The notes under the pieces are model-generated. The model made no database searches. It saw nothing but the letters and a program-made list of their open reading frames with translations, and had not been told where the DNA came from. Shown one piece after another: positions 55,063 through 56,485 of a DNA stretch of 64,000 nucleotides. The DNA lies in NCBI GenBank assembly GCA_013152385.1, contig JAADGL010000026.1, forward strand, positions 1 to 64,000, read 5' to 3'. This DNA is from Acidobacteriota bacterium (GTDB taxonomy: Bacteria > Acidobacteriota > Holophagae > Thermotomaculales > Thermotomaculaceae). The position numbers and the translations under genes were made by a program. Numbering within the stretch: position 1 is the first letter of the stretch; every line of letters begins with the position of its first letter.

Positions 55063-56485
55063 GTGGATTTTACCCAACTACAACTTCATCCGGACCTGAT
55101 GGCGGGAATTGAAGACGCCGGATTTACCCGTTGCACCCCGGTTCAGGAAAAATGCCTGATCCACACACTGAAAGGTAGAGACGTTACGGTTCAATCTCAA
55201 ACCGGAACCGGGAAAACCGCCGCCTTTCTCATTACAATTTTTCAACTGATTCTGGACGGTAAACTTCCCGATGGAAAAAAAGCGATGGTCATTGCCCCCA
55301 CAAGGGAATTGGCGGTACAGATTGAGAAAGACGCGCAGCTTCTGGGCAGGCACCTGAACATCTCCATGGCCACCTTCTACGGCGGAGTCAGTTACCGGCC
55401 GCAGGAGGAAAGCCTGTCAAACAACGTCCGGCTCATGATCGGCACCCCGGGGCGGCTCCTTGACCTGGGCCAGAAACGGAAATTCAACTTCCGGGACGTG
55501 GAAATACTGGTCATAGATGAAGCCGACCGGCTTTTTGACATGGGATTTCTCCCGGATATCCGCCGGATGCTGCGCCAGATGCCGCCTTACCATAAACGGA
55601 TGACCATGCTTTACTCCGCCACATTAAGCATGCGGGTCAAAGCACTTGCGTGGGACCACATGAACAACCCGGTGGAAATCCGGATTGAACCGGAAAAAGT
55701 CACTGTAGACTGTGTAACACAAGTGTTATACCACGTTGGGAAATATGAAAAACTCAATCTGCTCCTCGGAATTCTTGCCAAAGACAAACCGGAGAGTGCC
55801 GTCATTTTCACCAACACCAAACATGCCGCCATCACCGTTGCCAAACGCCTGACACTGAATGGATACCAGTGCAGCTACCTGATCGGCGATATGCCCCAGT
55901 CCAAGCGGCTGCGGACAGCGGACAGTGGAAGACGCCAAAAACGGAAAAATTCACTTTCTCGTTGCCACCGATGTGGCATCCCGGGGCCTTCACATCGAAA
56001 ACCTCCCCATGGTCATCAACTACGACCTTCCGGAAGACGCAGAAAACTACGTCCACCGAATCGGGCGTACCGCCCGTGTGGGGAAACAGGGCAAAGCAGT
56101 CTCACTGGTCAGCCCCGACTATGTACATGCCCTTTCCGCCATTGAGAAATACATCCACATGGAAATTCCGGTGGAATGGGCAGACGATAACATGTTTCTG
56201 AAAGACGAAAGTGCCGGAATGCACATCCGGTCCGGCCTGAAACCCAAACGCGGACATTCCCGCAACAAAGACAACCGGCCGAGAAACGCCAAACGGCCTG
56301 CTCCCCGGCAGAAAACACGTGACACCCGCCCGGCAGCCTCGCCGAAACCCCGAAAAAAAATAAATAGCCCCCGGCCGCCACACAAATCTCCGGTCAAACT
56401 GAACCGGAACGGCACACCGGAAGAACGCCTTGCCTACTACCGTGCCAAATACGGAGAAAACTTCAAACCCGGAACAGACAAATAG
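55063..56485 (+). pseudogene. DEAD-box RNA helicase (RhlB/RhlE-like) broken by a 7 bp tandem duplication
   Basis: The first frame (GTG 55063) encodes an intact helicase domain 1: RCTPVQEKCLI (Q motif), SQTGTGKTAAF, APTRELAVQ, GTPGRLLDL, VIDEADRLFDMGF and YSATLS, then VIFTNTKHAA. At 55911-55924 the heptamer GCGGACA is repeated in tandem and the frame is lost after KRLRT. Domain 2 continues in the +1 frame ([30 protein letters not shown]) with a basic C-terminal tail, to 56485. Removing one copy restores [16 protein letters not shown] and a 471-residue protein. Without repair, translation runs in the wrong frame to 56145. It could be a recent mutation, a slippage switch or an assembly error. 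Everything else looks conserved. Confidence 0.9.

Follow-up and report, generated by a model that had tools for sequence, protein, structure and literature searches.

Background

The closest described systems to the locus reported here are the phase-variable SSR loci (e.g., in Haemophilus and Neisseria), the recent bacterial pseudogenes frameshifted by short tandem duplications, and the RhlB-like helicases (NF003419, PF00270 and PF00271). According to a published scheme, two-unit pentamer tracts are 'mutable', with 1e-7 to 1e-5 events per division, and short tracts are prone to yield gene-inactivating mutations, while phase variation is reserved for longer, hypermutable tracts (PMC4235727). 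Our literature search returned no phase-variable RNA helicase and nothing on short tandem duplication combined with replication slippage. In DEAD-box proteins, motif VI is needed for ATP hydrolysis, and motifs V and VI are needed for ATP hydrolysis and unwinding.

The locus studied here lies in a 64,000-nt stretch of DNA (the window) from a draft genome of an uncultured Acidobacteriota lineage, and it resembles each of these systems in part. Like the phase-variable SSR loci, it displays a non-triplet repeat inside a coding sequence, for which a change in copy number would restore the frame; it differs from them in having two copies only, no tract in its relatives, and a gene of the housekeeping type. 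With the recent frameshift pseudogenes, it shares an exact short tandem, intact sister orthologues and the conservation of the rest of the gene, and no notable difference sets it apart, apart from a local sequence at the site that diverges from the sisters above average. Finally, it resembles the RhlB-like helicases by its two RecA domains, with every DEAD-box motif present across two frames, but differs from them in being frameshifted and in carrying a tail motif common to a Spirochaetia relative.

Results

The heptamer GCGGACA occurs twice in the window, back to back and without mismatch, exactly as the first-pass annotation had read it, and TRF reports a period of 7 at 55911-55929 with 2.7 units, the third being imperfect. 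Starting at GTG 55063, frame 1 reads through to its stop at 56143-56145; frame 2, open as of 55883, closes with a stop whose last base is 56485, and the two frames overlap by about 260 bases. The features of the locus are as follows.

55063..55910, + strand: 5' part of the RhlB-like helicase, in frame 1 (ORF; Pfam)
55911..55917, + strand: first GCGGACA unit (sequence; TRF)
55918..55924, + strand: second GCGGACA unit, which adds 7 nt and shifts the frame by +1 (absent from the orthologues of two sister genomes, G002 and G003)
55925..56485, + strand: 3' part of the helicase, in frame 2, basic tail included (ORF; Pfam; identity to G002 and G003)
55911..56145, + strand: out-of-frame reading past the repeat, which ends the predicted 360-aa product (ORF; stop list)

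The stretch from 55063 to 56485 covers 1423 nt, which, minus 7, gives 472 codons, i.e., 471 residues and a stop, in agreement with the protein length that the first-pass annotation had obtained by removing one copy. Agreement with the relatives extends through frame 1 as far as ...SKRL(R)T and resumes in frame 2 past the repeat; the matching sequence is contiguous on both sides of the junction with no N, and the relatives carry no insertion. Judging from these reading frames, the GCGGACA tandem is the cause of the helicase frame break, as had been proposed, since a perfect two-copy heptamer located exactly in the ~18-bp interval where the frames must cross is improbable by chance (an estimated ~3e-4).

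RecA domain 1 lies wholly in the 5' part, with its Q, I, Ia, Ib, DEAD and SAT motifs, whereas RecA domain 2 is divided: its first half belongs to the 5' part and its second half, with motif V (VATDVASRG) and motif VI (HRIGRTAR), to the 3' part. Indeed, both DEAD and Helicase_C were found with Pfam: in frame 1, DEAD covers 25-193 and Helicase_C only its profile positions 1-66 of 110, and the profile continues in frame 2 with positions 58-110, so that Helicase_C is split over two frames in the window and whole in the sister protein. The earlier statement that the other helicase motifs are intact thus holds when Pfam matches and ORFs are read across the two frames. The best NCBIfam profile is that of RhlB (NF003419), under its cut-off; with 435 bits against a cut-off of 588, the intact sister protein falls short as well, and the name is for this reason limited to 'RhlB-like'. 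Within this limit, the profiles and motifs identify the window gene as a RhlB-like DEAD-box RNA helicase. Its C-terminal motif LAYYRxKYG is shared with the protein of a Spirochaetia relative.

Two Acidobacteriota/Acidobacteria MAGs of the same genus as the window genome, G002 (JAADJC01) and G003 (QMQE01), encode an intact orthologue of 470 residues, whose identity to the window helicase is 91% and 88%, respectively, before the junction and 87% and 83% after it (55925..56485). At the site, both read CTG AAA ACT GTG GAA where the window reads CTG CGG ACA GCGGACA GTG GAA, i.e., AAAACT in place of CGGACAGCGGACA, with neither an insertion nor a repeat at the junction. The comparison with related genomes, which had been proposed as a check, therefore uncovered single-frame genes and no shared two-copy junction. 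Being absent at this site from both sisters, the heptamer repeat is private to the window lineage or to its assembly and not a conserved junction. In addition, four bases out of the six that adjoin the insertion depart from both sisters (CGGACA vs AAAACT). This exceeds expectation, a difference as large being found in only 2 of 469 codon pairs, and because of these adjoining bases the event may have been more complex than a plain duplication.

Counts of the substitutions specific to the window lineage gave 14 nonsynonymous and 43 synonymous changes before the junction and, over the 90 codons that follow it, 7 and 21. The ratio is equal, and no relaxed selection was seen past the break in these counts. 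Such unrelaxed constraint indicates that the break is very recent, or did not occur in cells. Together with the intact single-unit frames of the sisters, it agrees with the earlier reading of the site as a recent event or an assembly artefact. The gene also shows what marks a recent frameshift pseudogene, one disabling lesion where its close relatives have the orthologue intact.

Outside the two sisters, the nearest helicase relatives found belong to Spirochaetota (L036 and L037, from Spirochaetia and Treponema MAGs; 55% and 49% within the part that was searched), and in the tree the window helicase groups with Spirochaetota helicases, away from those of its own class, on long branches that leave the donor and the direction unsure. 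Neither G001 nor the family genomes G004-G008, several of which are incomplete, showed an orthologue. The Spirochaetota relatives and the shared C-terminal motif suggest horizontal transfer. The helicase gene and a DUF2911 gene (58126-59037) occur together in three species with differing surroundings, and the flanks of the window pair lie on different contigs from the helicase and DUF2911 pair in the sisters. In its distribution and neighborhood, the helicase gene looks like a mobile accessory gene. In the window (54990-59020), the helicase and the DUF2911 gene are about 1.6 kb apart, and the DNA between them holds an ORF of 187 aa and an Rhs-core fragment. Other DEAD-box helicase genes are present in the window genome (contigs C69 and C20), and no second, single-copy version of the helicase locus was found there. 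As the gene is accessory and other DEAD-box genes are present, its loss is plausibly tolerated.

The window genome (G000) is a 2.57 Mb draft of 69 contigs, and its genome-wide repeat figures are those of 595 kb sampled as stretches. Perfect two-copy heptamers number 7 within the window and 47 in the 595 kb, compared to 35-40 in Markov shuffles. The only heptamer array of at least three copies in this sample (ATAGTGG x3.9; G000:C17, L263 15039-15065) is intergenic. Homopolymers of at least 9 are strongly depleted (6 vs 58-80 in first-order Markov shuffles), and exact tandems of 6 bp exceed expectation (333 vs 115-150 in shuffles). Among the few longer non-triplet arrays of the 595 kb, none was seen controlling a gene. 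The one- and two-copy strings of the helicase site had no exact match in viral contigs, as expected for a chromosomal gene.

When sister proteins were compared with ~130 kb of coding DNA of the window genome, the helicase was the only convincing frame break apart from one N gap, and on this account the assembly does not appear generally error-ridden. This gap of 8 Ns lies within a second DEAD-box helicase gene (CsdA-like), whose frame changes across it (G000:C20:72679-72686, L170 12680-12687); a second helicase frameshift suspected on C20 was rejected, as it proved to be this gap, and other apparent frame breaks of the same genome (C19 and C20) resembled, at the DNA level, boundaries between neighboring genes. 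The same comparisons revealed in G002 an NN gap replacing ~12 nt, a one-base break and a 5-bp tandem. The latter, an exact duplication of ACAGA (G002:C138, L153 4341-4350), breaks the gene of ribosomal protein L25/TL5, through a real loss or an assembly error, and the gene has one ACAGA unit and an open frame in G003 and in the window (counterpart at ~21838). Judging from this L25 case, frames broken by short exact tandems are ordinary in these drafts and not peculiar to the helicase.

Discussion

Our results slightly favor a recent slippage-type loss-of-function mutation in an accessory helicase gene over an assembly artefact, with a rough probability of 0.53. A 7-bp tandem duplication of the replication-slippage type would have arisen within a dispensable RhlB-like gene, and translation would leave the native frame after codon 285 to give a 360-aa protein, which keeps RecA domain 1, loses motifs V and VI, and ends in an out-of-frame tail. 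Since such a product is devoid of motifs V and VI, it should be without helicase activity. We infer in this way that the duplication occurred in cells rather than in the assembly, that slippage produced it and that the product is inactive. The intact one-unit orthologues of G002 and G003 and the same substitution ratio on both sides of the junction support a recent break, and one broken gene in ~130 kb would correspond to an ordinary pseudogene rate. However, an unmerged 7-bp overlap of two contig ends gives the same exact tandem. It is quite conceivable, at somewhat less than an even chance, that two overlapping contig ends were joined in this manner, or that low coverage or a strain mixture caused a local consensus error, the real gene being intact. 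The undiminished constraint past the break is in line with such an error, as are the fragmented state of the draft, with its 8-N gap inside the second DEAD-box gene, and the NN gap and L25 tandem of the sister MAG G002. In contrast, the 595 kb contain only 2 N gaps, exact tandems of 7-60 bp are not generally in surplus as they would be after systematic unmerged overlaps, and the ~130 kb aligned yielded no further convincing example of such a break. Note that the rarity of N gaps and the lack of a tandem surplus argue against a systematic assembly fault, which we rejected for the latter reason, and not against a single one.

The first-pass annotation had also raised the idea of a contingency switch, in which slippage between one and two heptamers would serve within the population as a reversible on/off control of the helicase. 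A two-copy tandem can indeed drop one copy by slippage, the coding sequence downstream of the repeat is conserved, and even a two-unit pentamer is listed as 'mutable' (PMC4235727), so that reversion may occur in principle. However, evolved phase-variable tracts count far more units and belong to the hypermutable class (PMC4235727), whereas this one has two units (2.7 by TRF) and is missing from both sister species; furthermore, two-copy heptamers occur at about chance level in the genome and homopolymers of at least 9 fall far under the shuffle expectation. A selected on/off switch is thus not supported, and we consider it very unlikely; that the heptamer naturally alternates between a single and a double copy, as a reversible switch of a RhlB-like helicase in this uncultured Acidobacteriota lineage, is slightly less likely still. 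Heptamer switching at the genome scale was rejected as well, given the near-chance count of two-copy heptamers and the intergenic location of the sole array of more than three copies. Least probable of all, and hardly credible, is that both halves are used, either by programmed +1 ribosomal frameshifting or as two half-proteins translated separately: the overlap of the frames makes a shift possible in principle, but the sister species encode the protein in a single frame, the junction is not conserved, no stop-codon or slippery-site signal was seen there, nor any Shine-Dalgarno-like sequence before GTG 55925, and the split lies within the RecA2 fold.

Conclusions

That a single draft genome shows a neat two-copy heptamer is no evidence of phase variation. 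The window helicase is best regarded as an ordinary frameshifted gene, owing to a recent break or an assembly error, and has little significance in itself; its annotation is to be corrected accordingly, as this copy of an accessory helicase is frameshifted, though otherwise intact, and probably inactive or mis-assembled.
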